From contig CANXME010000407.1 in assembly GCA_948144175.1 (NCBI GenBank), forward strand, positions 1 through 64,000: 64,000 nt of DNA. The letters are read 5' to 3'. Position numbers and translations under genes: made by a program. Of this stretch, positions 2,910 to 64,000 are shown piece after piece. Under the pieces are notes generated by a model. That model was not told where the DNA came from. It worked only from the letters and a program-made list of their open reading frames with translations, and made no database searches. Source of the stretch: Closterium sp. NIES-65 (taxonomy: Eukaryota; Streptophyta; Zygnematophyceae; Desmidiales; Closteriaceae). How positions within the stretch are numbered: the stretch's first letter is position 1; each line of letters opens with the position of its first letter.

Positions 2910-5900
2910 AGTCGGTGCTCCGGCCCTGGTGCGGGAGATTGGCTGCTGGCACTACCCATCATACCCTCGCTTAGGATGGGGCCCTCCCAGCTCTCCTCCG
3001 CTGCTGCGTTCCGCCTAGGCCTCCCCCTACCGGTCCCCAGGCGCTGCGACTGCCGCTACCGCACCAAATTCCCTGATGACCGCCTTCCAAACCATCTCAT
3101 GCGTTGCGAGAAAGGGGGGGGAAGGATTGCGACTCACCATGCGCTCAGGGACGAGATCGTCTTGATTGCAGCAGAGGCGGGATTCACGGTGCACAAAGAA
3201 ACTTACGTTTACTCTCTCGTTGAAAACCTGAAGGCGGACGTTGCAATCCGCCATCCCCGGACGGGAGAGGTCTGGATGTGCGACGTGACAGTGACGGACC
3301 CCGTTTCTCACCAAGATGAGAACTGCAATAGAGCACCGGGGTGGGCGGCTAGGGCAGCTGCAGACAAGAAGGAGCAGAAATATGCGCGCCGGAATGCGTG
3401 GGTGGGCTTTCATGCCCTAGCGGTTGAGACATATGGGTACCCCTCGCCTGGGGTGTTGGCATTCTTGCGGCAGTGCGCGGAGCTGGCGGCCAAGCTGCGA
3501 TTCAACGCAGCCCCCAACTCCTACGAGGCCGCCAAGCTGCTGATGGAATACCGCCAGCGCTGGAGCGTGTGCCTCCAAAGAGCACAAGCCAACGCCCTCC
3601 GCTGCAAGACCAATGAGGCGATAGCAGCGGACGAGCTCGGCATGCGGGGCCCCTTTGCCCCCCTTAGTGAAGGCCAGCTCTACCAGCTAATAGAGCCCCC
3701 GTTCGACCTTTAGGGTCGGACAGAGGGGCCGGGGGGAGTAAGGGAAGGAGGTAGTTAGGCAGACCGAGTGTTATGTGTGGGTTTACATGTGTTTGCATCT
3801 ACCCATGTACCTCCCATCAATCAATACAAGGACCATTCGAGAGAGAGAGCGTGTGTGTGTGTGCGAGAGAGAGGGATTGCCTCGTGTGTACTCAACTGCC
3901 TTCCACCATCAGTGCACTGACGGCTGTCAGTGACATGACATGTGAGTGGCTCTCACTACTTTATCCATATCCCCCTCTCTCCCTCTTCCCCTCTCCCCCT
4001 CTCCCCCTCTCTCCGCTTCTTCCCACCACTTTGTTCTTGACTTCAATCAACTCACTGGGTCACTGCCTCTCTTGTACCGCGTTACTCTCTTATTTTCCCC
4101 CACTCTCCCTCCTCCACACCACAACGTTCTCGGCTTCAACCAGCTCACTGGGTCACTGCCTCACTCTAACCCCTTCACTCTGCCCCACTCCCCTCCTCCC
4201 CGTCTCCCCTTCTCCCCTTTTCCCCCTCCCCCTCTCTCGCCTCTCCTCCTTCTCCCCATCACAGTGTTCTCGGCTTCAACCAACTCACCGGGTCGCTACT
4301 GCAAGGCCTCTCCACACTTTCTCGTCTCTCCCGGCTGTAAGCATCTCATCATGCTACGTTACATCTAATGCTTTACTTTCTCTCTCTTCCGTCATTCGAG
4401 AAGTCCCGAAAGCCCTCTCCAGACTCTCTCGTTTCTCCCTGCTGTAAGCCGCTCTATCCTGCTAGGCTGCTATCCCACAGCTGTTGCTTTATTCGTACTC
4501 CTTTATCCTTCTTACTCCCACAGCTAGGCTTTATCCCACAGGGTACTTTCTGTGCTTTATTCTTACCCTAATCGTTCATTCATCCCATGGACCACTTGTA
4601 AGGCGTTTGGAAAGGAAAGTACTCTGAAATGTATTCTCACCACTCTCTCGTCTTTCCATGCTGCAAGCACCTCACTCCTGCTACGTTACAGATGCTGCGT
4701 TTCTCACACTCACTCCTGTGACACACCCTATTCGTTCATTCATTTTTGAGTCGACTCAAAAATAGGCTCCTGTGACACACCTCCCTCCCCTCCTGCTTTC
4801 CCGTTCCTTCCTTTCCGCAACGCCTCCTGCTTTCCCGTCCTTAACTTTCCGCAGCCCAATGGGCAAATACGTTTCGCCAGCCCAAAGGGCAAATACGTTT
4901 CGCCAGCCCAATGGGCAAATACGTTTCGCCAGCCCAATGGGCAAATATTTTTCGCCAGCTCTCTTTGTTGCTCTCTTGCAGCCTCTCCTCCTCACCACCT
5001 CCCACCCTCTCCACCACCTTCCCCTCTCCTCCCTCTCTTCTTCTGGCGTCTCCTTCTCTTCCTTTCTGCAGTGCACTCGGCAGTAACCGCTTCGCCGGTT
5101 CTCTCCCCGATTGGATTGGCGGCCTGTCCCTCATGGAAACACTGTGAGATGCCAGCCACTTTGGGTACCTTGGGGGCCATGGGAGACCACAGCGGGCATG
5201 ATTAACTGCCTTCAGATATCGCACCTATAAGAGCAATGAGCCTCAGGATCCAGCTGGCGCCCTTTGTGCAATGCATGATTCCTGAGGCTCCTTCAAAGCA
5301 GGCCTCGAGCAGCAGAACATGCCTCTCTGAGGGCTCACTATAGAAGTATCCCACCTTCTCCTTCTCCCCACCTTCTCTTTCATTAGATACTTTCGTGCTC
5401 TCCCTCTCCCACCTTTCCATGAACCCTTACAAACAGGGACATCGGCAATGATATCTTATCAGCGCTCATCCCTTCTCTTGTGGAATCACTCCCCTCTCCA
5501 CTCCCTTGTCCGTTTCCTTCCCCTATCTCCTTCCCATGCAATTCCACAGGGACGTCAGCAGGAATAACTTATCCGGCCTCATCCCTTCCTCGATCGGCAC
5601 TCTCCTCAACCTCACCTTCCTGTCAGTTGCTCCCCTCTCTTCTCTTTTTCTTTCATCTCATCCTTTCACTCTCTTCTTTTTAGGCTCCTCAAATGCAACC
5701 TTTATTCGCATTCTCCTCAGCCTTACCTTACTGCCTGCCAGTCCCTCTTCTCTTTTGAACTCTCTTCTGTGCAGAAAAAAGACCTCTATCCCATCCGTAG
5801 CCTTCTCCGCCCCATTCTTGCTCCTTCTCTCCATCTTGCCCCACTCTATCACGCCCATCACTGCTCTCCCATCTATCCCGCCCATCACTGCTCTCCCATC

Positions 5901-8127
5901 TATCCCGCCCATCACTGCTCTCCCATCTATCCCGCCCATCACTGCTCTCCCATCTGTCACGCCCATGCATGCAGGAGCCTCGAGTACAGCGCCTTCACAG
6001 GCCCTCTTCCCGCCTCCCACTTGCCCCCCCCTCGTTTCCTTACCCTTGTTTCCCCACTCCATCTCGCCGCTTTCAACCCCAAACATCACTGCTCCCAACC
6101 CAACTATCACGGCCATGCAGGAGCCTTGAGTACAACGCCTTCACAGGCCCTCTTCCTGCCACCCTCGGTTCCCTCACCACCCTCGCGTACCTGTGAGTTG
6201 CTTGCCAGCAATTTGTGAGTGCCTTGTAACTCAGTGGTGACAGAATTGCTTCAAGAGTCACACCTTCTGCCACCCTCGGTTCCCTCACCACCTTCGCATA
6301 CCTTTGAGTCGCCACCTGCACAAGAGAAACAACCTGTCGGTCTTTATTTGAGTTGACTCAAAAGCACCTGCACAAGAGAAACAACCTGTCAGTCTTTATT
6401 TGAGTCGACTCAAAAGCACCTGCACAAGAGAAACAACCTGTCAGTCTTTAGCGATTTGTGAGTGCCTTGTGCCTCACTGGTGACAGAATTGCTTCAAGAG
6501 TCGCACCTTCCCGCCACCCTCGGTTCCCTCACCACCCTCGCATACCTGTGAGCTGCACAGAGGAAACAAAAGCTGACCTGTGACTCTTCAGCGAGTTGCT
6601 TCTGAGAATTCTGTAAAGTGACACACACAAGCTCTGCCCTCGGCTCCCTCGGCTCACCCTTGTGTACCTGTGAATTGTCAAAACCTCGCTTCCATACCCT
6701 ATCCCTGAAATCCGCTTCTCTAGTCCTTGTTCCCTCCCTCGTCCCATGTGCAGTAACATAGACAGCACTCACTCATGTGCCGTGCTACCCCAGAAACTGT
6801 GAGGTGCCTCAGGACCCGCTTCTTGAAACGGCTTCCGTATCAGCCGCCCCACCTTCTTCTCGAAACCCCAGTCTCCTATCCTTCTTCCCTCCTGCACCCC
6901 ACGTGCAGTTACATAGACAACACATTGCTCCCCTCCGCAACCACCCTCGCCCTCCTGTGAGGTGCCTCAGGACCCGCTTTCCGTCTTCTGTGTCGACTGC
7001 CGCGTCTTCTTCTAAGAGACCCCACTCTCCCACCCTTTGTCACTCCCTCATCCCACGTGCAGTAACGTAGACAACACGTCGCTCGTCTGCCCCACTACCC
7101 CAGCCTCCTGTGAGGTGCCTCAGGACCCCCTATCCGTCTTCTGTGTCGACTGCGCCACCTTCTGCTCCCAGTGCTCTGCTGCGGGTAAGCCTCTCTGCTT
7201 CCTGCCGCAGCTCATGTCTCACTTACCTGTTTTGAAAAGTTTCAAGGACGCCATTCAACCTTCCTCCTTCGGCTCGTGACCATCTAGATCTATAGACGTG
7301 CAGTCAGATCCATGGCTCTCCCTTCAAATTGACTTTTGAGTCGTCTCAAAAGTCACTTCGTTTTGAGTCAACTCAAAATTCATCTGTAGACGTGCAGTCA
7401 GATCCATAGCTCTCTCTTAACATTGTAAATCCCCCACATGCCATGTCACCTGCTCTTCCACTTGTCAGCCTTTCCCCCTGCCCACCCAGAGTCCCTCCTA
7501 CTCCTTCTTCAACTTCTCCTGCTGCTACCAAACCCTTGTCCCTTGGCCGAATCCATTCACTCTTTTTACATTCCCTTGACAGACACCTAGCTCCACAGTC
7601 CCTTCGCTTCCGTATCTTTCCAAGTCAGTTGCATAATCCTGTCCCTAGATCCGTTGTTTATTTTATCATATGACTGATGTTTGTCATTCCTATTCCCTCT
7701 TTCCCCTGCCTGTTATGCCAACTCCGAAGCTCCACAAGCCCCGCCGATCCAGCCACCACCAGCACCACCACCAGCAGCACCATCACCATCAGCACCAGTA
7801 CCTTCGCCCGTCCCGCCTCCACCATCCCAACCACCAGCTGCAGCACCAGCATCACCACCCGCAGGGCCACCATCACCAGCGCCAACGCCACCATCAGCAC
7901 TATCTCCTTCCATCAGCCCACCCATCCCATCCTCACCATCCCCACCACCAACAACAACACCACCATCACCATCACCACCACCAGCACCACCAGCAGCAGC
8001 ACCACCAGCAGCAGCACCACCAGCAGCAGCACCAGCACCGAAACCTGCCTCGCCAGTGGCTGTGAGAGCCCTCCACGCCAATGCAATGACGGCTTTCGTG
8101 CTAGCCCTCCTGATTGCTGCCTTTTAA
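1878..8127 (+). CDS. LRR cell-surface protein with proline-rich stalk and GPI-like tail (copy 1)
   Basis: Multi-exon gene; the 5' end and signal peptide are not identified. An N-cap exon (1878-1998) encodes a plant LRR N-terminal cap, with a W..GGDCSQADGLTCDSNG stretch. Well-formed LRR exons are 2223-2294, 2661-2732, 5072-5143, 5550-5621 and 6121-6192. Each is exactly 72 bp, one 24-residue repeat, and is bounded by AG and GT with phase-2 joins; they carry LxGxLP motifs such as NSLTGELPSTISALTAL. A cysteine-containing C-cap exon (7063-7184) follows, then the stalk exon (7730-8127). The joins 1998/2223 and 7184/7730 keep frame. The protein should be secreted and lie at the cell wall or plasma membrane; there is no kinase domain. 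Between the good exons lie several decayed exon copies (4040-4290, 5437-5508, 5975-6046, 6265-6310, 6510-6550, 6640-6680). Function beyond LRR-mediated binding cannot be read. It may be partly pseudogenised. Confidence 0.6.
2735..2904. repeat. GT-rich then GA microsatellite
   Basis: An imperfect (GT)n tract is followed by a pure (AG)n run of about 45 bp directly after the donor of the LRR exon 2661-2732. A shorter GA/GT tract recurs at 3839-3876 on the other side of the LINE fragment. Translations through it are low-complexity and not coding. Confidence 0.9.
2909..3835 (+). mobile_element. 5'-truncated non-LTR retrotransposon (C-terminal ORF end)
   Basis: The open frame to the stop at 3711-3713 encodes only the C-terminal end of a non-LTR retrotransposon polyprotein. 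There is a zinc knuckle (CDC, then H-x3-C about 12 residues later), a histidine/arginine block (HHALRDEIVLIAAEAGF), and a restriction-endonuclease-like core with KADVAI, WMCDVTVTDP and a downstream KKEQKYA. These elements use that nuclease to nick the target. The reverse transcriptase is absent, as expected from 5' truncation. About 120 bp of 3' UTR follows and no poly(A) is visible. The fragment sits in an LRR-gene intron between two copies of an exon end. Assignment to a named clade is not possible from this piece. Confidence 0.65.
3895..3938 (+). pseudogene. Second copy of the LRR exon end 2691-2732
   Basis: About 40 bp repeat the 3' part of exon 2661-2732 (PSTISALTA, SDM) with one substitution and a duplicated ACATG before the donor-like GTGAGT. 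The two copies flank the LINE fragment. This is either a long target-site duplication or an earlier local exon duplication into which the LINE landed. Confidence 0.6.
4035..4300 (+). pseudogene. Three decayed LRR exon fragments
   Basis: Three pieces encoding FNQLTGSL occur at about 4041-4074, 4133-4167 and 4273-4300, each preceded by a pyrimidine-rich tract. None keeps a full 72-bp length or a good donor. They look like tandem duplicates of one LRR exon decaying inside an intron. Confidence 0.55.
4852..4955. repeat. 26-bp minisatellite, four units
   Basis: Four tandem 26-bp units built on GCCCAATGGGCAAATACG. The GCCCAATGGGC part is nearly self-complementary. The array lies in the intron before LRR exon 5072-5143. 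Confidence 0.9.
5851..5965. repeat. 27-bp minisatellite before an LRR exon acceptor
   Basis: About four 27-bp units with the core CCCATCACTGCTCTCCC end beside the acceptor-like CATGCAG of the decayed exon at 5975. The next exon's acceptor region (6085-6120) has related ACTGCTCCC and CCATGCAG, so the units resemble the intron 3' end itself. Confidence 0.8.
6312..6450. repeat. Three 35-bp copies joined by two palindromic linkers
   Basis: A segment starting CACCTGCACAAGAGAAAC and ending GTCTTTA occurs at 6312-6346, 6364-6398 and 6416-6450. The spaces between them are exactly 17 bp and are filled by TTTGAGTTGACTCAAAA (6347-6363) and TTTGAGTCGACTCAAAA (6399-6415). It lies in an intron of the LRR gene, just after a decayed exon end. 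Confidence 0.95.
6754..7184 (+). CDS. LRR C-cap exon (7063-7184) with two upstream partial copies
   Basis: The full exon 7063-7184 (122 bp) encodes the end of the LRR array, an NVDNTSL block, and a short C-cap rich in cysteine (CEVPQDP, then CVDC and CSQC) before the donor GTAAGC. Two shorter versions at 6754-6798 and 6909-6956 cover only its start and stop at GTGAGG. The same 122-bp exon exists at 29606-29727 in the second gene copy. Its four to five cysteines suggest a disulphide-closed cap in an extracellular protein. Confidence 0.65.
7293..7414. repeat. 28-bp direct repeat enclosing two palindromes
   Basis: A 28-bp repeat (27 of 28 identical; core GTGCAGTCAGATCCAT) lies at 7293-7320 and 7387-7414. 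Between the copies sit a 24-bp near-palindrome at 7331-7354 (centre GAGTCGTCTC, outer arms GACTTTT and AAAAGTC) and TTTTGAGTCAACTCAAAA at 7361-7378. Confidence 0.9.
7730..8127 (+). CDS. Proline-rich stalk and hydrophobic tail exon of LRR gene 1
   Basis: The acceptor CCGAAG at 7724-7729 joins in frame to the C-cap exon. The exon encodes about 110 residues dominated by PP, SP and AP runs (an arabinogalactan- or extensin-like stalk), then a short basic/spacer stretch (VRALHANA), and ends with a dozen hydrophobic residues (TAFVLALLIAAF) directly before TAA. A small-residue site followed by a hydrophobic C-terminus is the layout of a GPI-anchor signal, so I infer attachment to the outer plasma-membrane leaflet. 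The paralogous exon at 30499-30878 keeps the same design with different proline spacing. Confidence 0.65.
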
Positions 8128-8564
8128 TGCGAGTTGATGTCAATATCAACATGATTTTGTGGAGTATGACTGTATGATGAGTTATCTTTATTGTTGTCAG
8201 TTGATTAGCATAATTACTTAGTTCTCAGCTAGTAAACACAAAATTAAGGTGAACATATGAGGGGGGATCTGTGCATGGTGGTGTTTCTGCTAGAAGCTAC
8301 GCACACCTTGCACCTGCATTGTCTTTATTAGTTTGTATTGCCAGTTTATTTGAACCTCTACGTTCATCACGTCTGTCATAGAACAGTGTACTGTTGCACA
8401 TTGGGCGAGGTTGTATGTGCCACATCAGAATTTGCGAGGAAGCCGATGGTGCACCCACACCAGCGAAGTTCGTCCGAAAACGAGGTTGGATCAAGCGGGT
8501 CGCATGCGTGTGTGGGACTTCGCGATTCGATTCACGCCCGTGTATCCTCCCTTTCCGCTCCAGG

Positions 8565-8639
8565 GCCCTGTTCGACTGGCGCATCAGGGTTTAGGCCTTG
8601 TACCGGAGCCTAAACCCTGATGCGCCAGTCGAACAGGGC
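8565..8639. repeat. Perfect 32-bp inverted repeat with 11-nt loop
   Basis: Arms 8565-8596 and 8608-8639 are fully complementary over 32 bp (arm starts GCCCTGTTCGACTGGCGCAT). The loop is CTTGTACCGGA. It lies in the intergenic region between LRR gene 1 and the EXORDIUM-like gene, about 180 bp before the TATA box, and has no counterpart in the duplicated block near 31.2-31.9 kb. It is therefore a recent insertion or local inversion-duplication; as RNA it would form a very stable hairpin. Confidence 0.95.
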
Positions 8640-8813
8640 ACAGAAGTTTTCCACCACAAGCTCCCCCCACCACTTAGGCATGGAAACTTCCAACAACCTC
8701 CAATGTTCGTCGTGACGTGACAGCCACGGAAGTTGAGGCGCAGGTCAACGCAGGGTCAACGAGTTGAGTTGAGCTCTGCTTCCCCTACCGAGCTCTCGAG
8801 TTGCATATCGAGT

Positions 8814-8820
8814 TATAAAA
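8814..8820 (+). promoter_or_regulatory. TATA box of EXORDIUM-like copy 1
   Basis: TATAAAA lies about 290 bp upstream of the likely start at 9110. The paralogue has TATAAAG at 31837-31843, about 240 bp upstream of its ATG. In both, the box is preceded by GC(A/G)TATC and followed at short range by GTCTCC, so the core promoter was duplicated with the gene. Confidence 0.6.
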
Positions 8821-9697
8821 CAGTCGAGGCTGTCTCCATGCTGCCAACACAGACCAATCCGATATCGTATTACCCTCTCTCACGTCACTGACACAAATCG
8901 TACTTCATCGTTCAACGATCACTTAATCTTCGTGTCGAAAGCTCTATCTTGTGCCGCACAAGATCGTCAAACCCTAACTTGTGTCGGCGGCCGACACGTC
9001 TTGCGAATAGCCTCTTCAAAACCCCTGGGTCTGCCTTTCCGTCACTCACGTGGCCCACGCTCGCGTGATATTCACAGCCGTGACTCACTGAGTTAGCATG
9101 GGTCCAAAGATGGGTGCATTTCCCACAATAGTGGCACGTACCTTTCTCGTCACGCTCATAACAATGCTTCCGGCGGTTTCTGCCTCCGCCGCACGAAAAG
9201 CGTCGCCTGAAGGCGTGGCGACGAGCGGTAAGGCTGCGCAGGAATTTAGTATCCCTTGGCGGGCAATACGGCGTCCAATGCGGGGACCCAGCGACCAGAT
9301 CTCCGTCTCTCTTTCTGAAACGCCCGCATTGCAGCCGAACAGCGCTTCTGCAACTCCGGCGGGGGTTCCGCAACCCTCCGCTCTCCCTTCCGCCGCCCCT
9401 CCGGGAGCAAGGCTCATTCCCCTTCGTGGCGCGAGTTCTGCGCGATCCGCCGAGTCCCCATACGCAATAGTACGGAATTCCACTGCAACGACCCAAAGCG
9501 CGTCCGCGACGCGGTTCGTCCCTCTCAGGCTGCCTCTCGGGAAGCTTCAGCACCAGCAGCAGCGGCGCGAGGTGGAGGGCGCGACGGACACTGCGAACCA
9601 GGGCGGCCCGATACTGGCCTATTCGAAGGAGTACTTAATCTACTATGGGACCTCGACCGAGGGGTCCGGCCAGGATGTGACTGGAAATTTCGAGAAC

Positions 9698-9816
9698 TCG
9701 TTGGGCGGAGACACGGAGACAAGGGGATCCGGGGGATCCGGGGCGTCTTCAAGCAGAGCTGCGCATGCTCCCCAAGTCGACTCAAAAGTCAAATCGTTGG
9801 GCGGAGACACGGAGAC
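9698..9816 (+). repeat. In-frame 96-bp duplication with palindrome remnant in coding exon
   Basis: A 23-bp block (core TTGGGCGGAGACACGGAGAC) occurs at 9698-9720 and 9794-9816, 96 bp apart, so the frame (SLGGDTET twice) is kept. Directly before the second copy stands AAGTCGACTCAAAAGTCAAA (9774-9793), the right half of the window's recurrent palindrome. The paralogue in copy 2 has a single SLGGDT block and no insertion. Confidence 0.9.
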
Positions 9817-10470
9817 CCAGCGGGGGATCCAGGGCGACCCGACGGGGGAGAGCAGCGGGCGTATTTGGTGGGACATGTCGACCAACTCCTACCAGACTAA
9901 CGATGACGGCTCCCAGCCGTTCGTCAGTCCCGAGGTGGGTGTGTATGATAACGCCCTAAGCCCCGTGTCCCTTGTCCCGTGTCCCTAGTAGTAGTCGACG
10001 CGTACCGTGTCGCTTCATTTTTTGGTCGCCACCGACTGCCTCTCGCCTCACATCGTTTCGCTCCATTCAGTTCACTTCTCTTCTCGTTCTCAAGGTACTC
10101 CATTCAGTTCAATTCACTTCTCTTCTCTTCACTTCACTTCCCATTCTCTCTGCTCTCGCCCAACACACCCCTCACCCGAATTCGAGACAGGTCATGTTGG
10201 GCGGCCTGGTCACGGACGACAGTTTTAACGGCTGGGAATCCATCTACTGCACTTTCACGGACGACGGATCTGACGGCTGGGAATCTGACTTCGATTATAG
10301 TCCGAGTGAGTCATGCGCGTAATTTTACTGTTGGGAATGTGTATGTCACTGGAGATAATTATTAAAGTGGATCCAACGGCTGCAAAATCATCTAAACGGG
10401 GATGAGTGAGTCATGTGAGTGAGTGAGTGATTTTGCTGCTGGAACTAACAGCAAAACGGGACCGAACCGA

Positions 10471-10780
10471 GGTGACTTTTGAGGACGCGTTGAAAGTGCA
10501 AATATTGCAGGATCGTCTGCATATATCGATCCCCACAATCGAGTGGGCAGATCGTTTGGCGAAACGTGGCGACCGCGAAGCTGTAACGATCGCGGCTGAA
10601 AATTGACAGATTTCCTGCGAAAAGTGATCAGTCGCATTCTCACTGCACAAAAAAAATGGCCAGAAAGCTTACTGTAGCATGGTTGCAACGTAGTTAATAG
10701 GGTAACTGATCGGCACATCGGTCGCTGCTGACGATCGAACGTCTACTTTCACCGCGTCCGGAGTCGACTCAAAAGTCACC
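10471..10780. mobile_element. Possible 310-bp element bounded by palindrome half-arms
   Basis: GGTGACTTTTGAG (10471-10483) and its exact complement CTCAAAAGTCACC (10768-10780) form 13-bp terminal inverted repeats. They carry the same GACTTTTGAG arm as the palindromes elsewhere. The right end is preceded by GAGTCGA. No coding capacity is seen. A partial copy of the left flank (TTGCTGCTGGAACTAACAGC-like, 10433-10470) reappears right after the right end (10781-10817), so the element lies between duplicated flanks. Confidence 0.5.
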
Positions 10781-10854
10781 TTGCTGTTGGAACTTGCAGC
10801 GAAACAGGACCGAACCACGCTTGACTTCGACTCATGCTGGTCTCTCCTGCCGTG

Positions 10855-10998
10855 AATGCGTGCTGTGATTGCGTGCTGTGATTGCGTGCTGTGATTGCGT
10901 GCTGTGATTGCGTGCTGTGATTGCCTGCTGTGATTTCCTGGTATGATAGCCTGGTGTGATTTCCTGCTGTGATTTCCTGCTGTGATTGCCTGCTGAAC
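10855..10998. repeat. 13-bp minisatellite, about 11 units
   Basis: Tandem GTGCTGTGATTGC units, the first ones identical and the later ones drifting (GCCTGCTGTGATTTCCT). It lies in the intron before the broken third exon of the EXORDIUM-like copy 1. Confidence 0.9.
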
Positions 10999-11140
10999 TA
11001 ACGTCTGCCGTGATTGCCTGCTTCCTGCTGTCCCTCGCCCGCCATTGTTCTCCAGTCTACACGCAAGACACGTTTGGAATCTACCTCGTGCTCGTGATTG
11101 CTTGTTGGCTACTAATAGCCCTTAGTTCATTCTATGCGTA

Positions 11141-12195: not shown

Positions 12196-12399
12196 TACAT
12201 GTGATGCTCACCTCCTGCACGCGAATTTGCCTTGCACCCGGTTGGTTTTGTTCCATGACGTTGCACCCCATTTACAAGCACCTCTAACAAGTTGCCACCT
12301 AAATCAGCCAATACTAACAACAGAAACCGAGGTTTGACTGAAAAGACTGAAGTCAAACAGTCAATGGTGGGCTACACTTGCTTTTTATAAGCCCTTTTT

Positions 12400-12834: not shown

Positions 12835-12966
12835 TGTCAAACATTATATATGTTATGCTTGTGTAGGCTACAGTGGGTTAGCCTATAGGGGGTACACAAT
12901 TCTAGGGTTTCCTACTTGTACTCATTTCACTGCTAGTTCATTCATTCCTGTTCGCTTATTCGCACA
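12835..12966 (+). repeat. 5' LTR of copia 1
   Basis: Starts TGTCAAACATTATATATG and ends TTATTCGCACA. It differs from the 3' LTR only at the G/T four bases before the final CACA. An LTR of 132 bp is very short for a 7.3-kb copia. Confidence 0.95.
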
Positions 12967-13014
12967 TGGTATAGAGCGGGTCCTTCTAAGGACCGTTTTT
13001 TTGGGCCCACCGAA

Positions 13015-20037: not shown

Positions 20038-20169
20038 TGTCAAACATTATATATGTTATGCTTGTGTAGGCTACAGTGGGTTAGCCTATAGGGGGTACAC
20101 AATTCTAGGGTTTCCTACTTGTACTCATTTCACTGCTAGTTCATTCATTCCTGTTCGCTTATTCTCACA
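20038..20169 (+). repeat. 3' LTR of copia 1
   Basis: Identical to the 5' LTR except for one base near its end. The one-in-132 difference argues for recent insertion. Upstream, 19832-20037 is 3' UTR with AT-rich TATATATA stretches and the polypurine tract. Confidence 0.95.
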
Positions 20170-21771
20170 TCCACGGCACCGTCACTCCTAAAGAGCCTGC
20201 AACGGTTCAACATGCTCTAGGGGGGGGAGCATAAGGAAAAATGGCGCGAAGCCATGGACAAGGAGCTGAAGGCACTGGAGGAACGCAACACGTGAAAAGT
20301 GGTTCCTATCGGCGTGGCACGGAACAAGACAGTTCTCACCGAGAAGTGGGTCTGACGGCACCATCGACAAATTTAAGGCACGCTGGGTCGTACGCGGTTT
20401 CGACCAAGAGCACGGACGCGATTTCACCGAAACATTCGCTCCGGTCAGCCGACACACCTCGCTACGCATCCTTCTCGCGATCGCCGCCATGAAGAAGAAG
20501 AAGTTGCGGCAAATCGACGTCGCTAACGCATTCCTCTACGCACCTGTTGACGCAGAGATCTTCATCGAGCTACCACACCGCTCCAGCACGGACTCGAATC
20601 ACGTCTGTCAACTACTCAAGTCGCTCTACAACATCAAGCAAGCTCCGCGACTATGGCAACAATACCTACACGCTCGCCTCATTTGCATCGGCTTCAAGCA
20701 ATTGCCGCACGACCAGGGCATGTACCGGCTCATGAAGGGTACCGACTACATCCTGCTAATCGTCTATGTAGACGATCTGCTCTACATCGGCTCAACTGAC
20801 GGCAATACAACCTGGTTCAAAGGGGAGCTACAGCAAGACCTCACACTCACGGTCTCATCTACCGTCACACAGTACCTCGGCCTCAACATCCGCGAAGAGG
20901 AAGACGCTATCTACCTCAGCGCCGCAAAATACGCCGACACCATCGCCAAGCGTTTCGCACTCACACCGACTGTCATCTCCACACCGTACCGCTACACGAC
21001 AGTTAACAACAAGGAAGGCTCCGCTCTACTCAAGCCCGCCGGCATACGGGACTACCAGAGAAAGCTGGGCTGCCTTCTCTTCGCAGCTGTCACCTGCTGC
21101 CCAGATCTATCCGACTCTGCAAGCCAGCTCGCCACCCACCTCAAGAAGCCTGAAGCGGAACATCTGGCGGAGCTCGACCGCGCTCTTCACTACCTTGTCA
21201 GTACCCCGACGGTCGGCCTGACTTACCATAAGAACGCAACTACAGCGCCTAAGCTAATCGGTTACGTCGACGCAGATCAGGCGGGTGACTCCGACAACAG
21301 ACGATCGCGCACCGGCTACATCTACCGCTTCGAGCCTATCGGACCTATCTCCTGGCAATCGAGCAAGCAGGAATTAATTGCTCTCTCGTCAGCTGAAGCA
21401 GAATATATTGCACTCTGCTCAGCCACCAAGGAAGGACTCTACCTTCGCGAGCTACTAGAAGAAGCAAAGTTAGCCGAGTTACCCAACTTTACCCTGTTCT
21501 GCGACAACCAATCGGCAATTCGCATCGCCAACAAGAATGGATTCGCGAACAGGACGAAACACATCGCCTTGCGATCTTTCTTCGTGAAGGACGAGATCGA
21601 GAAGGGAAGGCTTGAGCTGTCATACTGTCCCACGTCCGAGATGGCAGCCGACTATCTGACCAAGAAGCTCGGAAAGCAGAAGTTCGAATACTGCATGCTG
21701 TTGACTGGACAGAGCCACGTCAGCGACACTCCAGAAGCGAAGGGGAGTGTTGGAAACAATCGGTCCTAAGC
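20170..21771 (+). pseudogene. copia 2 reverse transcriptase and RNase H
   Basis: Continues the linker at 12834 across the copia 1 insertion. The frame shifts at a run of G near 20220, meets a stop where tryptophan is expected in ERNTWK (about 20293), and shifts again near 20353. From 20489 to 21769 it is open. It contains IDVANAFLYAPVD, SLYNIKQAPRLW, the catalytic YVDDLLYIG (about 20767) and RNase H blocks YVDADQAG, SSAEAEYIAL and CDNQSAI, then HIALRSFFVKDE. It ends just inside the 3' LTR. It is a different copia lineage from copia 1 (different LTR, much less GC-rich) and older. Confidence 0.9.
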
Positions 21772-22387: not shown

Positions 22388-22392
22388 CGTTG

Positions 22393-23855: not shown

Positions 23856-23860
23856 CGTTG

Positions 23861-28651: not shown

Positions 28652-28947
28652 CGGGTGTTTGTGGGGGTGTTGTACGTTTTGTCACCACTAGAACTATGGT
28701 CTGATTCGCATTAAAAAATATTCGGTAACAGGGTAGTGTACACCAATCCCTGATTCCGTCAGGGTAACCTAAAAACCTATCAGGGTGAAATAAAACATGC
28801 TCTTTTAAGAGAAGGGTAACTATTGTGCAATCGTGATTTCGGCAGGGTAATCCTGAAAAAGCGGCCGGCCCCCAGGGTAATCAGGGCGTGATATTTTGGG
28901 CCCTGAGGTGCGAGTTGTTTTTTTTTTTCTAGTCGACTCTTCCCTTC

Positions 28948-35392: not shown

Positions 35393-35396
35393 TTAA

Positions 35397-36091: not shown

Positions 36092-39000
36092 GTGAGTGGC
36101 TAAGGGGAACGCTAACATACCACTGGTAAGGCATTTTGCAGAGATCAAACTTGCACGGAGCTTTTGAGTCGACTCGAGAGTCATCAGGGATTGCAGGGTG
36201 CAGTGCTGTGCACCTCAGCTCCCCGCATCGCGTTTCCATGGATTTACCGCAAAGAAGCTCCCCCCCACACCCCTCCTCCTCCCTCCACCAGCCAGCGCTG
36301 CTCTGCTGGAGCAGAGCAGCGTGTACTTGTACGTGTACGAGTACGTGTACGAGTACGAGTACGTGTACGTGTACGTGTACGAGTACGTGTACGTGTATGA
36401 GTACGTGTACGTGTACGTGTACGTGTACGATTACGTGTAAGTTCACGTTTACGTGTACGTAGCATAGATCTACCACAAAAAGGCCTTCCGTCCCGCTCCC
36501 TCTTTCCCTCCCCACCCCCACTGCCCACCCTCTGCCAGTTCTATCCCCACCAGTTATTCGCCCGAGGCACTAGCCGCCAGCGCTGCTCTGCTGGAGCAGA
36601 GCCTCGACGTGTACGTGGCGTGGAACTATTCAAGAACGTGTACGCCTCCCCCTTTCCCTCCCCCGCCCCTTGTCCCTCTGCTAGAGCAGAGCCTCGACGT
36701 GTACGTGGCGTGGAACTATTCAAGAACTCTTGCACTCGAGGCGTGGAACTACCGCGAGGAGGCTTTCCATTCCACAAGAAGGCTTCCCTTCTTTGGCTGC
36801 CCTCCCTCCTGCCTTACCACTTCCCATCAGATTCTTGCTCGAGGCACTAGCCGCCATCTGCCCCTCATTCATTACTAGCCGCCATCTGCCCCTCATTCAT
36901 TACTAGCCGCCATCTGCCCCTAATTCATTACTAGCCGCCATCTGCCCCTCATTCATTACTAGCCGCCATCTGCCCCTCATTCATTACTAGCCGCCATCTG
37001 CCCCTCATTCATTACTAGCCGCCATCTGCCCCTCATTCATTACTAGCCGCCATCTGCCCCTCATTCATTACTAGCCGCCATCTGCCCCTCATTCATTACT
37101 AGCCGCCATCTGCCCCTCATTCATTACTAGCCGCCATCTGCCCCTCATTCATTACTAACCGCCATCTGCCCCTCATTCATTACTAGCCGCCATCTGCCCC
37201 TCATTCATTACTAGCCGCCATCTGCCCCTCATTCATTACTAGCCGCCATCTGCCCCTCATTCATTACTAGCCGCCATCTGCCCCTCATTCATTACTAGCC
37301 GCCATCTGCCCCTCATTCATTACTAGCCGAGCCGCCAGCGCTGCTCTGCAGGAACAGACACTCAATGTGTACTTGGCGTGGAACTGCCGCAAGAACGCTT
37401 CCCCCTTCCACCTCCCTCTCCTCCCTTTTTCCTCTGCAGGAGCAGAACCTCGATGTGCACGTGGCGTGGAACTACCTCTTTTTCCCCACTTAAAAGTGGC
37501 TTTCCCCCCTCCCCCCCCTCTTCCCTTTTTTTCCTGATTTCAGCTACTCGCCTGAGGCTCTAGCAGCCAGCGCAACTCTCCTAGAGCAGAACCCTGACGT
37601 GTATGTGGCGTGGAACTACCGCAAGAAGGCTCCCTTCTTCTCCTTCTCCCCTCCCTCTTTGCCTTTCAGTTACTCGCCAGAAGCACTAGCCGCCAGCGCT
37701 GCTCTCTTAGAACAAAACCCTGACGTGTATGTCACGTGGAACTACCGCAAGAAGGCGTTTGCCCACCGATGCGGTGCTCTGGAGGCAGGGGAGGGTGGGA
37801 GCAGGGAGGGGAAAGCGGTGCAGAGGGGTTTGGAGGTGAAAGAGGGGGAGAAGGAGGCGCAGGGGAAAGAGGGGCAGGGGGAGGGGGGGAAAGAGGCGCA
37901 AGGAGAGGGGGGATCAGGGGGGGGAGAGGTGGGGACGGATGGGGCAATGGGTGAGGCGGAGAGTGCAGGAGGGAGGGGTGACAAGAGGGGAGAGAGTGAA
38001 GTTGAGGGGAAGAATGATGGGAAGCAGGGAGAGGAGCAGGAGAGGGTGGAACGGGAGCGAGAGGAAAAGGCGAAGAAGGAAGAAGAGAAGAAGATAGAGG
38101 AAAGGAAGATAGAGGAACGGAAGATAGAGGAATGGAAGATAGAGGAACGGAAGATAGAGGAACGGAAGATCGAAGAAGCTAAGGGGAAGCTAGCAGACGA
38201 AGAGCTGAAGCTGGTGAGTGAGTAAACGGCGTGGCTGATGGTACCATTGGCATAACGTGCGAGTCTGACAATGGTACACTCACTGAGTCGCTCCTGAGAA
38301 TTCGAAAAAAACGGACGAAGATCTGTAACTGGTGAGTAGTTTTGAGTGACCAATAGTACGTTTGGCACAATAGCGAGTCTGCCAATACTACACTGGACTG
38401 GATGAGGAGGTTGGCTCAAACCAACCCCCCACCCCTCCTCTTAACTCATCCCCTCCCCCCTCCATTGCTACTCTCCCTCACACATGCAAAACAGATAGAA
38501 GCAGCGGTACGGCACCTGGCCTGGCACCACCGCAAGTGGCTTCTTGAGTCGCCTCAGAGATGTATCCTTTAACTCTCTCCGTTCCTCCTCTTCCCCCCAA
38601 ACACTCACATCAGATAGAAGCAGCGCTACGGTACGGACCAACCCCAAGTGCTACGGCGCCTGGCACGAGTCACCGCAAAGATCTATCCTTTAACTCTCTC
38701 CGTTCCTCCTCTTCCCCCCAAACACTCACATCAGATAGAAGCAGCGCTACGGTACGGACCAACCCCAAGTGCTACGGCGCCTGGCACGAGTCACCTCAAA
38801 TATCTATCCTTTAACTCTCTCCGTTCCTCCCCTCCCCTTAAACACACACAACAGATAGAAGCAGCACTATGGCGCCTGGCCTGGCACCACCGCAAGTGGC
38901 TTCTTGAGTCACCTCAGAAATGTATCCTTCAACTCTCCCTCTCCAACCCAACTTCTTCCAAACACTCGCAACAGATAGAAGCAGCCCTACGGACCAACCC

Positions 39001-42000
39001 CAAGTGCTACGGCGCCTGGCACCACCGCAAGTGGCTCTTCGCCCTCTCCTCCACCGAGCCTCTCCCAAGCCTCGGAGCCAACCTCGGGCCGAGCCTGCAG
39101 CAGGTTCGGATCAATCTGCGGACGGAGGCTCGGATCGCCCGGGAGCAGAAGCTGTTGGGGATGATGCTGAGTGCCGATGATCGGAACTTCCATGCCTGGG
39201 ACTACTGGAGGTGAGAGAGGGATTGAGAGCGGTATTGATGGGTATGGGTGGTGGTGATGCGGATGTTGCTGGGGATGATGCTGAGTGCCGATGATCGGAA
39301 CTTCCACGCCTGGGACTACTGGAGGTAACGGTGGTGAGGGGTGATGATGGGTGTGTATGGTGATATTGCAGGTTGATGCTGAGAGCAGATGATCGGAATT
39401 TCCATGCCTGGGAGTACTGGAGATGTTGTAGGGATTGAGAGCGGTGCTGATGGGTGGGTGGTGATGCAGATGCTGTGGGGTTACAACCTTGCTCGCCTGC
39501 CACCATTCAGTTCCACCCATCTCATCTTCTCAGTTCCACCCATCTCATCTTGTCAGTTCCACCCATCTCATCTTCTCAGTTCCACCCATCTCATCTTCTC
39601 AGTTCCACCCATCTCATCTTCTCAGTTCCACCCATCTCATCTTCTCAGTTCCACCCATCTCATCTTGTCAGTTCCACCCATCTCATCTTGTCAGTTCCAC
39701 CCATCTCATCTTGTCAGTTCCACCCATCTCATCTTGTCAGTTCCACCCATCTCATCTTGTCAGTTCCACCCATCTCATCTTGTCAGTTCCACCCATCTCA
39801 TCGTCTCAGTTCCACCCATCTCATCTTCTCAGTTCCACCCATCTCATCTTCTCAGTTCCACCCATCTCATCTTCTCAGTTCCACCCATCTCATCTTGTCA
39901 GTTCCACCCATCTCATCTTCTCAGTTCCACCCATCTCATCTTCTCAGTTCCACCCATCTCATCTTGTCAGTTCCACCCATCTCATCTTTTCAGTTCCACC
40001 CATCTCATCTTCTCAGTTCCACCCATCTCATCTTGTCAGTTCCACCCATCTCATCTTGTCAGTTCCACCCATCTCATCTTGTCAGTTCCACCCATCTCAT
40101 CTTGTCAGTTCCACCCATCTCATCTTGTCAGTTCCACCCATCTCATCTTCTCAGTTCCACCCATCTCATCTTCTCAGTTCCACCCATCTCATCTTGTCAG
40201 TTCCACCCATCTCATCTTGTCAGTTCCACCCATCTCATCTTGTCAGTTCCACCCATCTCATCTTCTCAGTTCCACCCATCTCATCATCTCAGTTCCACCC
40301 ATCTCATCTTGTCAGTTCCACCCATCTCATCTTGTCAGTTCCACCCATCTCATGTTCTCAGTTCCACCCATCTCATCTTATCAGTTCCACCCATCTCATC
40401 TTCTCAGTTCCACCCATCTCATCTTCTCAGTTCCACCCATCTCATCTTGTCAGTTCCACCCATCTCATCTTCTCAGTTCCACCCATCTCATCTTCTCAGT
40501 TCCACCCATCTCATCTTGTCAGTTCCACCCATCTCACCTTTTCAGTTCCACCCATCTCATCTTCTCAGTTCCACCCATCTCATCTTGTCAGTTCCACCCA
40601 TCTCATCTTGTCAGTTCCACCCATCTCATCTTGTCAGTTCCACCCATCTCATCTTGTCAGTTCCACCCATCTCATCTTGTCAGTTCCACCCATCTCATCT
40701 TCTCAGTTCCACCCATCTCATCTTCTCAGTTCCACCCATCTCATCTTGTCAGTTCCACCCATCTCATCTTGTCAGTTCCACCCATCTCATCTTGTCAGTT
40801 CCACCCATCTCATCTTCTCAGTTCCACCCATCTCATCTTGTCAGATCCACCCATCTCATCTTCTCAGTTCCACCCATCTCATCTTCTCAGTTCCGCCCAT
40901 CTCATCTTCTCAGTTCCACCCATCTCATCTTCTCAGATCCACCCATCTCATCTTCTCAGTTCCACCCATCTCATCTTCTCAGATCCACCCATCTCATCTT
41001 CTCAGTTCCACCCATCTCATCTTCTCAGTTCCACCCATCTCATCTTCTCAGATCCACCCATCTCATCTTCTCAGTTCCACCCATCTCATCTTCTCAGTTC
41101 CGCCCATCTCATCTTCTCAGTTCCACCCATCTCATCTTCTCAGTTCCACCCATCTCATCTTCTCAGTTCCACCCATCTCATCTTCTCAGTTCCACCCATC
41201 TCATCTTCTCAGTTCCACCCATCTCATCTTCTCAGTTCCACCCATCTCATCTTCTCAGTTCCACCCATCTCATCTTCTCAGTTCCACCCATCTGATCTTC
41301 TCAGTTCCACCCATCTCATCTTGTCAGTTCCACCCATCTCATCTTGTCAGTTCCACCCATCTCATCTTGTCAGTTCCACCCATCTCATCTTCTCAGTTCC
41401 ACCCATCTCATCTTGTCAGTTCCACCCATCTCATCTTGTCAGTTCCACCCATCTCATCTTCTCAGTTCCACCCATCTCATCATCTCAGTTCCACCCATCT
41501 CATCTTGTCAATTCCACCCATCTCATCTTGTCAGTTCCACCCATCTCATGTTCTCAGTTCCACCCATCTCATCTTATCAGTTCCACCCATCTCATCTTCT
41601 CAGTTCCACCCATCTCATCTTCTCAGTTCCACCCATCTCATCTTCTCAGTTCCACCCATCTCATCTTCTCAGTTCCACCCATCTCATCTTCTCAGTTCCA
41701 CCCATCTCATCTTCTCAGTTCCACCCATCTCATCTTGTCAGTTCCACCCATCTCATCTTCTCAGTTCCACCCATCTCATCTTGTCAGTTCCACCCATCTC
41801 ATCTTCTCAGTTCCACCCATCTCATCTTGTCAGTTCCACCCATCTCATCTTCTCAGTTCCACCCATCTCATCTTCTCAGTTCCACCCATCTCATCTTGTC
41901 AGTTCCACCCATCTCATCTTGTCAGTTCCACCCATCTCATCTTGTCAGTTCCACCCATCTCATCTTCTCAGTTCCACCCATCTAATCTTCTCAGTTCAAC

Positions 42001-61783: not shown

Positions 61784-61833
<50 letters not shown>

Positions 61834-64000
61834 TGCTCCTGCTGCGCCTGCTGCTGCTGATGGTGATGTTGCTGCCAGTGGTGCTGCCGCTAGTGCTGGT
61901 GATGCTGCAGGAGGGAGCGAGCAGTGGCGAGTGGATGTGGTCCAACGGGAGATTGACATGTGTCGCGAGCTCATTGACCTGGAACCAGACAGGTGTGTGC
62001 GTGGTATTCAGTGCGATGTGTCGTGTGACTTGGACCATGCCGTGTCTGTGTGGTGTGGTCCCTCCAACACCAAGAAGAATAGCTCAACCCATTTCTCGTA
62101 TCCCGTCTCCTTTCCTCCTGCTTCCAGCTTCGGTTCCTCTCTCGCACTCTCAAACCCAAAACCCCGCTCCCCTTCCCTTCCTGCTCCCCCTTGCTTGCAG
62201 CAAGTTAGCTATCCCCTCCTTCGCCCACCTGTTCTCCACTTCTTGAGTCAACTAAAACAATCCCCCATTCCCCCCTCCCTGCTTCCGCCCCTTTCCAACC
62301 CTTCAACCATCGTCTTCCAGCAAGTGGGCTCTCCTCTCTCTCTCCCGCCTCCTCTCCACTCATTGAGTCAAATGTCCTCCTACTCTCCCCCCTCCCCCCT
62401 CCACCCCTTCCCCCCCCCCCCCCTCTCCTCGCTCTTCCAGCAAGTGGGCTCTCCTCTCTCTCGCCCGCCTCCTCTCCACACGCCGCCAGCTCCACCACCT
62501 CTTGCCGAACCTACCCGTGCAGGCTCGGCAAGATGCCGAGGCTTGTGAAGAGGTTCGGTCGTTGCTTCGACGGCTGGTGGGGATTGACCCATACCACAAG
62601 GAGTATTACCGAGACCTACTAGAAGCGCTGGAGGGGGATGAGGTGAGTAAGGGTGTGTGTCTAAGAGGAGCATGATGTCTGTGTCGACTCTGGTCAAAAG
62701 GTGGGGGTCGATCCATACTACAAGGAGTATTACCGGGACCTGCTAGAAGCGCTGGAGGGGGATGAGGTGAGTAAGGGTGTGTGTACGGAGAGTGTGTGTA
62801 AGGAGAGTGTGTGAAAAGGTGAGGGTGTGTGTGCAAGAATTGGGGTTGTGAATGAGGTGAGGAACAGCAACAGCATTGGCTGGTGGGGATTGGTCCATAT
62901 CACCAGGAGTATTACCGGGACCTGCTAGAAGCACTGGAGGGAGAGGAGGTGAGGAGGGTGTGTGAATGAGGTGAGGGTGTTTGGATGAGTGTCCCACGTG
63001 GGGTTGAGTGAGTGTCCAACGTGGGGGTGAGTGAGTGCCCCACGTGGGGGTGAGTGAGTGTCCCATGTGGGGGTGAATGAGTGCCCCACGTGGGGGTGAG
63101 TGAGTGTCCCATGTGGGGGTGAGTGAGTGCCCCACGTGGGAGTGAGTGAGTGCCCCACGTGGGGGTGAGTGAGTGCCCCACGTGGGAGTGAGTGAGTGCC
63201 CCACGTGGGGGTGAGTGAGTGCCCCACGTGGGAGTGAGTGAGTGCCCCACGTGGGAGTGAGTGAGTGCCCCACGTGGGGGTGAGTGAGTGCCCCACGTGG
63301 GGGGTGAGCGCTCACCTGGGGGTGAAAGCCCGTGTGTGTCTAACCGGACCTTAGGTTTTCAATCTTGTCCCCTCGTTTGTCTCACACATCTTTGCACCTC
63401 CTCCCATTGCCCCCATCTCCAATTCACCCCATCAGGACACACCCACCACAATAAACACAACCAACACCTCCAGCAGCAGCAGCAGCAGCAGCACCAGCAT
63501 CAGCACCACCACCACCACAGTGTGTCTGTCCCATCGGCACCTCTCCTGCCTGCCAGCGTCCCACCGCCTGCTGCCAGTCTCCACGCTGCTCCTCGACCAC
63601 AACCGCATCTCCACCCTCACAGGTGTGTCGCCCAAAAAGTAGTCACAAAAGAATCGCACACAACCGCACCACAACACCTGCAGCAGTCTGCTGCCAGTCT
63701 CCACGCTGCTCCTCGACCACAACCGCATCTCCACCCTCACAGGTGCGCCGCTCCTCTCGCCCACCTCCCCTCTCTGCATGCTCTGGTAACATCCCAACAC
63801 TTATCTGCGCAAGCTCCCTCCGCCCAACCCCCCCAGGATTCGAGGCGCTTCAGAATCTGCAAGTGCTGGACCTCTCCCACAACCACATCGCCTTCTCCTC
63901 AGCCATCGCTCCTCTCGCCCACCTGCCCGCCCTCCGCACTCTCTCCCTCGCCCACAACCTCCTCGGAGCCAAACCAGTCGACCGCCACCGCTACTGCCAC
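35955..64000 (+). CDS. RGTA: Rab geranylgeranyltransferase alpha subunit, plant type (3' end outside window)
   Basis: Alpha subunit of the enzyme that, with a beta subunit and Rab escort protein, attaches geranylgeranyl groups to Rab GTPases in the cytosol. Exons that join in frame are 35955-36091, 37670-38213, 38975-39210, 60199-60303, an exon set within 60611-61992, 62441-62642, 63436-63622 and 63837 onward. Prenyltransferase-alpha repeats are clear: NPDVYVTWNYRKKAF, NPKCYGAWHHRKWL, ADDRNFHAWDYWR, NANFSNYSAWHGRR and DDQSGWMYQHWLL. SKWALLSLARLL and DPYHKEYY then follow. The C-terminal LRR (DHNRISTLTGFEALQNLQVL, LSHNHI) is the plant/animal RabGGTA hallmark. The frame leaves the window at VDRHRY, the usual near-end motif. 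Most exons have decayed duplicates beside them, and intron 3 is about 21 kb. The full frame with canonical motifs suggests a working gene. The least certain part is the exon 5/6 start. Confidence 0.88.
36331..36460. repeat. GTACGT/GTACGA hexamer repeat
   Basis: About 20 units of TGTACG with variant AGTACG. It starts where an exon 2 copy would read GACGTGTACGTGGCG, so it appears to be an expansion of that exon's own GTGTACGTG. Confidence 0.85.
36847..37322. repeat. 28-bp minisatellite, exactly 17 units
   Basis: Units start CTAGCCGCCATCTGCCCCTC and are 28 bp long; 476 bp give 17 units with only one or two base changes. CTAGCCGCCA is the exon 2 sequence encoding LAAS. Exon-2-like sequence precedes the array (GCTCGAGGCA) and resumes after it (GCCGCCAGCGCTGCTCTGCA), so the array sits inside an exon copy. 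Confidence 0.95.
37670..38213 (+). CDS. RGTA: RabGGTase alpha exon 2 with charged insert
   Basis: Starts in frame after TTTCAG. It encodes the first prenyltransferase-alpha repeat (NPDVYVTWNYRKKAF), then some 150 residues not found in the usual subunit: a Gly/Glu/Lys-rich stretch followed by KIEERKIEERKIEEWKIEE-type six-residue repeats that should form a long charged helix. It ends at a codon boundary at GTGAGT. The canonical protein continues with only a short linker here, so the exon has grown. Confidence 0.8.
38495..39210 (+). CDS. RGTA: RabGGTase alpha exon 3 (38975-39210) with four upstream copies at 120-bp steps
   Basis: Acceptor plus ATAGAAGCAGC occurs at 38495, 38614, 38735, 38855 and 38975, that is at steps of 119, 121, 120 and 120 bp. 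Only the last is complete; it encodes IEAALRTNPKCYGAWHHRKW to ADDRNFHAWDYWR. The first and fourth copies end in TTCTTGAGTC(G/A)CCTCAGA(G/A)A, a worn version of the palindrome. Two further partial copies of the exon's end follow at about 39265-39327 and 39372-39421. Confidence 0.85.
39508..59972. repeat. 23-bp satellite-like array, about 890 units (20.5 kb)
   Basis: Head-to-tail units CAG TTC CACCCATCTCATCTT + (G or C) + T. The first unit starts at 39508 and the last full-phase CAG is at 59955; the distance is exactly 889 x 23, so there is no net indel. Most variation is a G/C choice at position 22; rarer variants (TTATC, CGTC, CATGTTC, GATCC, TTTCACC) act as landmarks. The unit has no stop codon in any forward frame, which creates overlapping frames of up to 2,999 codons with a 23-residue period. 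There are no spacers, and the unit is not telomere-like. Confidence 0.98.
60062..60197. repeat. 17-bp minisatellite forming an intron acceptor
   Basis: Eight units of AACCATGCATGCAACCC. The eighth ends AACCAG instead of AACCC and supplies the AG acceptor for exon 4 at 60199. ATGCAT makes each unit partly palindromic. Confidence 0.93.
60199..60303 (+). CDS. RGTA: RabGGTase alpha exon 4
   Basis: Encodes FMSHVARM...LGFTMERI and NANFSNYSAWHGRR, a textbook prenyltransferase-alpha repeat. Donor GTGAGT at 60304. A second partial copy (AATCAACGCCAACTTCAGCA to GCGTGGCACAGCAGG, 60427-60475) follows in the next intron. Confidence 0.85.
60611..61992 (+). CDS. RGTA: RabGGTase alpha exon 5/6 region: last PPT repeat and inserted domain
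   Basis: CELVRQAFFTEPDDQSGWMYQHWLLQ is encoded twice, at 60611-60748 (which then reads into LP repeats and a stop) and within 60887-61010, which stays open to 61992. A third fragment of the start is at 60532-60550. After the second copy comes SAVLVFSEPVVGV and a low-complexity Ser/Ala region with a 17-alanine-like (GCT)n run near 61790-61850. This matches the position of the extra beta-sandwich domain of RabGGTase alpha. The exon ends with CRELIDLEPD and phase-2 donor GTGTGT at 61993. Which copy is spliced in, and from where, I cannot settle: the acceptor at 60890 would break frame. Confidence 0.65.
62201..62642 (+). CDS. RGTA: RabGGTase alpha exon 7 (62441-62642) preceded by two copies 120 bp apart
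   Basis: Acceptor plus CAAGT(G/T)(G/A)GCT occurs at 62201, 62321 and 62441, exactly 120 bp apart. The preceding exon's AG plus C gives serine, so the join reads LEPD-S-KWALLSLARLLS, the canonical motif. Only the third copy continues through ARQDAEACEE and DPYHKEYYRDLLEAL to donor GTGAGT at 62643. Copies one and two end in TTGAGTCAACTAAAA (62243) and TTGAGTCAAATG (62363), remnants of the palindrome. Two copies of the exon's 3' end follow, at about 62701-62768 and 62881-62949. Confidence 0.85.
62985..63310. repeat. 24-bp minisatellite, about 13 units
   Basis: Units of GTGAGTGAGTGCCCCACGTG plus GGGG. Each begins with a GTGAGT donor-like sequence and contains CCCCACGTGGGG, a 12-bp palindrome with a CACGTG core. 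It directly follows a decayed copy of the exon 7 end and its donor (GTGAGG), from which GTGAG may derive. Confidence 0.93.
63436..64000 (+). CDS. RGTA: RabGGTase alpha C-terminal LRR exons (partial)
   Basis: Exon 63436-63622 joins in frame to exon 7. It starts with a threonine/serine tract from (AGC)n and (ACC)n repeats and ends LLLDHNRISTLT-G. Its second half is repeated exactly 120 bp downstream (63681-63742). Exon 63837 onward continues GFEALQNLQVLDLSHNHI and LAHLPALRTLSLAHN to VDRHRY at the window edge. In animals and plants these LRRs close the alpha subunit; about 20 to 30 residues remain beyond the window. Confidence 0.8.

Follow-up and report, generated by a model that had tools for sequence, protein, structure and literature searches.

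Cyanobacterial small dispersed repeats (SDR), of 21-27 nt, are mobile-like, and some of them form hairpins and are nested; yeast GC clusters are an example of the short palindromic mobile repeats of mitochondria. The known transposase families give fixed short target duplications, and LINE/SINE-type retroposons give target duplications of variable length. The palindromic insert of Closterium that we describe here has the latter property; it shares a size of tens of bases with the SDR, which are bacterial and for which we know of no description of long target duplications; and, like MITEs, it is short, non-coding, of inverted symmetry and present in many copies, but differs from them in measuring ~36 bp at most, in having no interior and in its long, variable duplications. 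To our knowledge, a gene-less insert of 20-36 bp with long, variable target duplications fits no known transposon class.

Mitochondrial palindromic repeats (PMC4478555, PMC7218506) are also very short and mobile, but they are organellar, whereas palindrome inserts in Closterium are found in genes that appear to be nuclear, in exons as well as introns, and carry long flank duplications. Mammalian interstitial telomeric insertions are, as here, short and of constant sequence, taken up where DNA is broken, with empty orthologous sites, and show an occasional target duplication that has been ascribed to staggered breaks (PMC2246262, PMC7215372). Duplication is given there for 6/130 rodent (4.6%) and 4/25 primate (16%) loci (PMC2246262), and for 3/66 horse loci (4.5%) plus 2 complex events (PMC7215372); thus telomeric repeats with duplication at 4.5-16% of loci stand against a palindrome with duplication at 27/33 loci in Closterium. 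Fill-in by Pol alpha-primase/CST at 3' overhangs makes small tandem duplications and offers a further likeness, in that protruding ends are filled and joined to give a direct duplication; the Closterium joint, however, holds a constant palindrome, and the abstract of that study describes no recurrent inserted sequence (PMC8355091). Ordinary repair of random breaks fits the Closterium joints poorly, because telomere-repeat insertions seldom show duplications.

Closterium sp. NIES-65 is a desmid (Zygnematophyceae), and the Closterium group is the one closest to land plants. The window, by which we mean the whole stretch of 64,000 nucleotides that was analysed, belongs to contig C407 of the NIES-65 assembly, in which 874,075,685 bases were counted (876 Mb for the published assembly; PMC10407611). 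Pfam domains in the window are those of Ty1/copia, Phi_1 (in the paralogue at 32.2 kb) and prenyltransferase-alpha.

The palindrome family and its unit

The sequence-only reading had reported a recurrent palindrome in this DNA, and the palindrome is real: with up to 3 mismatches, its 18-bp form occurs 8 times in the window (at 1485, 4744, 6346, 6398, 7334, 7361, 10757 and 36162), where 0.02 occurrences are expected from shuffles. With a 20-kb satellite removed, the window holds 11 sites at up to 4 mismatches (0.07 expected), 13 at up to 5 (1.07) and 24 at up to 6 (7.3); given these last two expectations, window forms with 5 or 6 mismatches are uncertain when taken singly. The genome-wide search that the same reading had proposed, again allowing 3 mismatches, returned 57,370 matches in the NIES-65 assembly and 180 for the reversed control, while the exact 18-mer gave 13,080 (control 0) and a 34-bp extension of the palindrome, with up to 3 mismatches, 2,774 (control 0). 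The same sequence thus recurs, with 30,327 exact TTTTGAG-NNNN-CTCAAAA sites (control 4), which distinguishes the insert from random filler. Palindromic micro-inserts form a dispersed family in Closterium, with tens of thousands of copies.

In a limited check, the exact 18-mer had no match in the literature searched, and the string 'palindrom' does not occur in the body of the paper on Closterium genome size. Comparison with copia repeat ends, Rfam, and viral and prokaryotic collections showed no relation or gave no match; a 24-mer of the palindrome had no match in bacterial and archaeal genome contigs.

Each unit is palindromic and measures at most ~36 bp, CGAGGTGACTTTTGAG-NNNN-CTCAAAAGTCACCTCG, with half-unit GAGGTGACTTTTGAG and with ends trimmed by varying amounts; it is a single uninterrupted palindrome, with no interior between terminal inverted repeats, and on folding gives a 16-bp stem closed by a tetraloop. 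Read outward from the core, the arms run GTCACCTCG, and agreement falls from 66/94 arms at the first base to 38/94 at the ninth, with little thereafter; we therefore place the full unit at ~36 bp, with variably trimmed ends. The centre NNNN is usually TCGA, ACGT, GCGC or AATT. Among the first 50 sites listed, TCGA occurs 22 times, ACGT 12, GCGC 10 and AATT 2, with 4 one step off, so that 46/50 listed copies have a self-complementary centre; the list runs in contig order with arrays included, and its entries are therefore not independent draws. The density of the TCGA motif (up to 3 mismatches) is uneven, since 17/20 random 10-kb stretches hold no copy. An AATT copy in L015 is a 32-bp perfect palindrome with a copy pair of ~44 bp around it. 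The outer A/A pair occurs 554 times genome-wide, a paired count alone from which we draw no reading. The plant-type telomere repeat is TTTAGGG, and the insert type, TTTTGAGNNNNCTCAAAA, is different from it.

The two arms of a copy resemble each other. In a sample of 25 single palindromes with at most 1 mismatch, the matching run between arms of one copy averaged 2.80, whereas re-paired arms gave 1.63 (P=0.0002), and the two arm lengths were correlated (rho 0.51, P=0.009). Arm symmetry and centre classes could reflect inherited subfamilies, rather than being remade at each event.

Flanking duplications and empty sites

Direct copies of the flanking sequence lie on both sides of most palindromes in the window. 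The exact palindrome at 4744-4761 (22-bp perfect, 4742-4763) sits between identical 15-bp copies (4713-4727 and 4767-4781); three 34-bp target copies alternate with palindromes 6346-6363 and 6398-6415 in an array of 52-bp period (6313-6450); a dimeric insert with palindromes 7334-7351 and 7361-7378 is bordered by 44-bp copies, 89% identical (7288-7331 and 7382-7425); and on the forward strand, at 9698-9816, a 73-bp insert (9721-9793) in a Phi_1-like exon has identical 23-bp copies on either side. At 10435-10819 a palindrome is split by a MITE into halves at ~10472-10483 and 10761-10779, around which copies first spotted by eye (10435-10473 and 10781-10819) are ~27% diverged. Another duplication joint (29735-29789) holds a worn AATT-centre variant at 29772-29789, TTTTGAGAATCCTCAGGA. 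Partial copies of a prenyltransferase-alpha exon are spaced by ~120 bp at 38495-39033 (forward strand), where 38542 and 38902 mark worn palindromes, and three partial exon copies ~120 bp apart occupy 62194-62480 (forward strand), with worn palindromes at 62241 and ~62361; the palindrome at 62241 is translated (FLSQLKQ) in gene models of NIES-64 and NIES-65.

Of the sites listed by the sequence-only reading, three fare less well: 28931-28939 lies off the joints; the palindrome at 36162-36179, with 2 mismatches, has no detectable flanking duplication; and the half palindrome at ~30024-30039 (region 29957-30095) is strongly worn, its loosely matching copies (29957-30003 and 30049-30095) appearing in loose alignment only, so that we treat it as weak alone and leave it outside the joint count. 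The list had also overlooked a worn palindrome at 1485-1502, between copies 1407-1477 and 1507-1575 that are ~76% identical (region 1407-1575).

Several other features of the window may be recorded here. Some of the partial exon copies near 62.2 kb are translated in the NIES-64 and NIES-65 gene models. The sequences TTCTGAGAATTCTGTAAA (6600-6617) and TCTGAGAATTCTCTGA (29011-29026) sit in both LRR paralogues, and are possibly worn AATT-centre copies that predate the gene duplication. An inverted repeat of 39 bp with an 11-nt loop (8558-8646) is unlike the palindrome family. A 20-kb array (39507-59972), in which a 23-bp unit recurs ~890 times and the GC skew is extreme, separates parts of a prenyltransferase-alpha (RGGTA-like) gene, and a 28-bp unit repeated 17 times with 99% matches (36846-37329) lies immediately ahead of a prenyltransferase-like exon. 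Repeats of 133 bp, 99% identical (12835-12967 and 20038-20170), flank the Ty1/copia integrase and reverse transcriptase frames and are possibly LTRs.

Within the window, 7/8 independent loci with up to 4 mismatches lie in joints at a gap of up to 350, as against 2.9 by local shifts (P = 0.0024), and 5/8 at a gap of up to 120, as against 1.7 (P = 0.011). The window is rich in small duplications, and local enrichment is therefore moderate and flank scores alone are weak proof: by raw flank-alignment score 11-22% of random positions in the window equal most good sites, and a tight-joint score of at least 14 is reached by 5/15 window sites and by 8.7% of 1500 random positions. That differing wear reflects repeated events, as had been suggested, is plausible, but palindrome wear and copy divergence are not significantly correlated (rho 0.28, P=0.46, n=9; rho 0.65, P=0.08 when one locus is removed), and we dropped wear as an independent clock against copy divergence. 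For 38902 this comparison relied on poor copy coordinates.

The flank comparison that the sequence-only reading had proposed was made on a sample of 40 loci (51 sites with up to 3 mismatches, mostly exact copies, on few contigs of one genome). Of these loci, 22 are from the 28 among the matches listed (C13:83548, C14:102145 and four arrays on C16 and C18 being left out), 6 from the window, 3 from 20 motif-blind 10-kb stretches and 9 more from within the DNA that was read. When the left flank's suffix was scored for a match to the right flank's prefix, 31/40 loci reached the score before filtering, compared with 30% of nearby (n=760) and 26% of random positions (n=2000), while flanks re-paired between different loci reached it in 0.19% of 1560 pairs. 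Plain local alignment, also unfiltered, gave 34/40 loci against 49.5% of nearby positions, and a requirement that both copies lie within 60 bp gave 27/40 against 29.2% of controls. These first controls looked unfavourable on account of the many tandem arrays in the genome. A tandem filter, applied alike to sites and controls, dropped 7/40 loci and 422/1267 nearby, 585/1985 random and 311/1557 window control positions; those remaining may include palindromes of the other centre types. With tandem-array flanks so removed, 27/33 loci lie between direct flank copies (score of at least 8), against 205/845 nearby positions (24%; P 5.5e-12), 42/1400 in the 10-kb stretches (3%) and 91/1246 in the window; at a score of at least 15 the figures are 22/33 loci, 177/845 nearby and 20/1400 random positions. 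Together with the genome-wide counts, this flank test settles the observation.

A looser, descriptive alignment, run without a control of its own, found copies at 36/40 loci, of which 31 have lengths of 13-86 bp and 5 are longer, at least one of them overestimated (6346, the three-copy array). Examples are duplications identical over 23/23 bp at C6:123337 and 21/21 at C9:51955, one of 59 bp at 97% (C6:85821), and one of 60/60 bp at C6:109299, a locus removed by the tandem filter. No convincing copies were seen at 4/40 loci: 10757 (split by the MITE) and 36162 in the window, C60:34385 and C9:25908. Among 28 starts and 26 ends, a small sample with boundaries uncertain by a few bases, there was no strong target consensus (top base 14/26).

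The Phi_1-like frame (9098-9985) provides the clearest comparison with empty sites. All five of its protein matches are from Closterium; the best, P0001 (NIES-65), is 100% identical as rounded over 74% of the query and carries the same exon insertion. The insert, which ends in the right half of the palindrome (9779-9791), adds 96 bp together with the duplication, and the reading frame stays open. Both are absent from the paralogue (32.6 kb), from P0002 and P0003 (Naga37s-1), from P0004 (NIES-53) and from P0005 (Yama58-4); the gap in the alignment is 108 bp (36 residues) rather than 96 because the flank differs too. Among deletions of the same length, removal of the insert with one copy gave the best fit to the paralogue both at 9.77 kb (rank 1/79) and at 6.3 kb (1/63), whereas with more diverged paralogues the ranks were indecisive: 7/73 (7.3 kb), 8/42 (10.8 kb) and 19/57 (30.0 kb). 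Taken together, the homologues and the deletion ranks show the joint absence cleanly for one exon and lend it support at a second locus.

How the inserts may arise

We regard it as almost certain that the palindrome is inserted with concurrent duplication of the flanking DNA. That a micro-element inserts while duplicating its surroundings was one of three processes put forward in the sequence-only reading, and it is the one that finds support, in the exon homologues that lack both features, in the genome-wide family and in the 27/33 loci. As the best explanation overall, to which we give a probability of roughly 60%, we propose that palindromic micro-inserts are joined at staggered cuts and that filling of the overhangs duplicates the target. 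Both strands would be cut with a wide and variable stagger and with no strong sequence preference; one half-unit would be copied onto both arms to produce a short hairpin or palindromic duplex, an idea prompted by centres that change yet stay self-complementary and by arms that agree with each other; this product would be joined between the cut ends; and the single-stranded overhangs would be filled, duplicating the interval. Target plus palindrome may then grow into short arrays through repeated copying or later unequal exchange. In the narrower form of this proposal, to which we give somewhat less than even chances, what is captured at the cut, whose stagger is wide, is a short hairpin. More tentatively still, Closterium might possess a dedicated system that makes a wide-stagger cut and joins the ends by way of a palindromic linker, derived from a hairpin or templated by RNA, whose 4-base centre is self-complementary, duplicating mostly 13-86 bp per event and seeding satellite arrays and exon fragments throughout the genome.

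An unlikely alternative is that a tiny hairpin RNA is retroposed, a LINE- or Penelope-like reverse transcriptase copying a ~36-nt hairpin transcript at a staggered nick. Such copying would give variable duplications, end truncation and, by template jumping, concatemers. Duplication length is indeed variable, the unit folds as such a hairpin would, and concatemeric inserts occur, with three units at C9:25031 and about two each at C9:22553, C9:134018, C14:82209 and window 7334/7361. Target-primed copying should, however, keep one fixed 3' end, and when this pattern was checked trimming was found at both ends and correlated between the arms (n=25); nor do the cut sites show a strong motif (n=28).

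We think it rather improbable that an RNA-templated, telomerase-like activity gives each 3' end of a staggered break an identical short tail, the tails pairing by their self-complementary last four bases and filling then leaving the palindrome and the duplication. The four main centres are self-complementary 4-mers, as tail pairing would need; outer ends vary, and serial units resemble repeat addition. Independently added tails should start at unrelated points, yet at any one locus the two arms match. Insertions made by telomerase at breaks have been described for mammals, but duplication is rare among the cases given in those reports (PMC2246262, PMC7215372), as against 27/33 loci here.

Inverted symmetry, high copy number and the several centre classes would also suit a conventional DNA transposon (MITE) of which only the joined inverted ends are left, mobilised by an unseen transposase. 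This we find doubtful, given the wide range of duplication lengths (31/36 within 13-86 bp) where a transposase would give fixed short ones, and given that the single long candidate is a MITE inside a palindrome. That candidate is a block of ~300 bp at 10.47-10.78 kb that looked like a transposon with palindrome halves as its ends, with a z of -5.45 on folding the region. Of 40 scored genomic matches to 10470-10782, 36 do not extend past query position 294 and so lack the right half of the palindrome, and the 4 full-length ones are the window itself and three copies of 96-100%. The palindrome as a deleted MITE is ruled out by these 36 matches; an origin as the joined ends of an excised transposon (another of the three suggested processes) finds no support, this block being the only long candidate seen. 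From these matches we read a MITE of ~278 bp (10482-10759) as having landed inside a palindrome, as a separate insertion; its edges carry an apparent 3-bp repeat, GAG, read by eye. The MITE-like family of 10482-10759 has GACGCG-type inverted ends and 40 scored matches (of 175 candidates) at 82-100%. Further copies of 10470-10782, at 100, 97 and 96%, lie on C2145 (two) and C2336, so that this region has itself been duplicated.

The remaining suggested process, in which the palindrome is there from the start and causes breaks, the flanks being duplicated when these are repaired by copying, we consider very improbable. It would accommodate the palindrome at 36162, with 2 mismatches and no duplication (1/6 window loci with up to 3 mismatches), and the existence of arrays, but it is disfavoured because palindrome and duplication are jointly absent in the clearest comparison, where five Phi_1-like homologues (one paralogue and four proteins) lack both, and it leaves the spread of 30,327 near-identical palindromes unexplained. 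A library or assembly artefact can be practically dismissed: a palindromic linker between filled-in ends looks like adaptor chemistry and one assembly was used, but worn copies exist, the exon insertion is shared by the window and P0001, between which there are substitutions, the 10.5-kb block including the palindrome halves recurs elsewhere in the assembly at 97 and 96%, and the assembly was built from PacBio data, with linked reads used for correction (PMC10407611).

Arrays and consequences for genes

Many of the exact palindrome copies stand in arrays, with fixed steps of 37, 63, 64 and 77 bp among the matches listed; a 71-bp step on C398 runs through at least 19 exact copies, and C117 has a 72-bp step. 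If the mechanism of joining at staggered cuts with overhang filling holds, it would tie together the spread of the smallest mobile sequences, the origin of small tandem duplications and the origin of satellites, this last because arrays are built of units of target plus palindrome (at steps of, for example, 37, 63, 64, 71 and 77 bp). Insertion of the palindrome can also extend a reading frame without shifting it, as in the Phi_1-like exon, in an alga whose group is the closest to land plants. Our findings point to an unfamiliar mode of DNA insertion and of founding new repeats.
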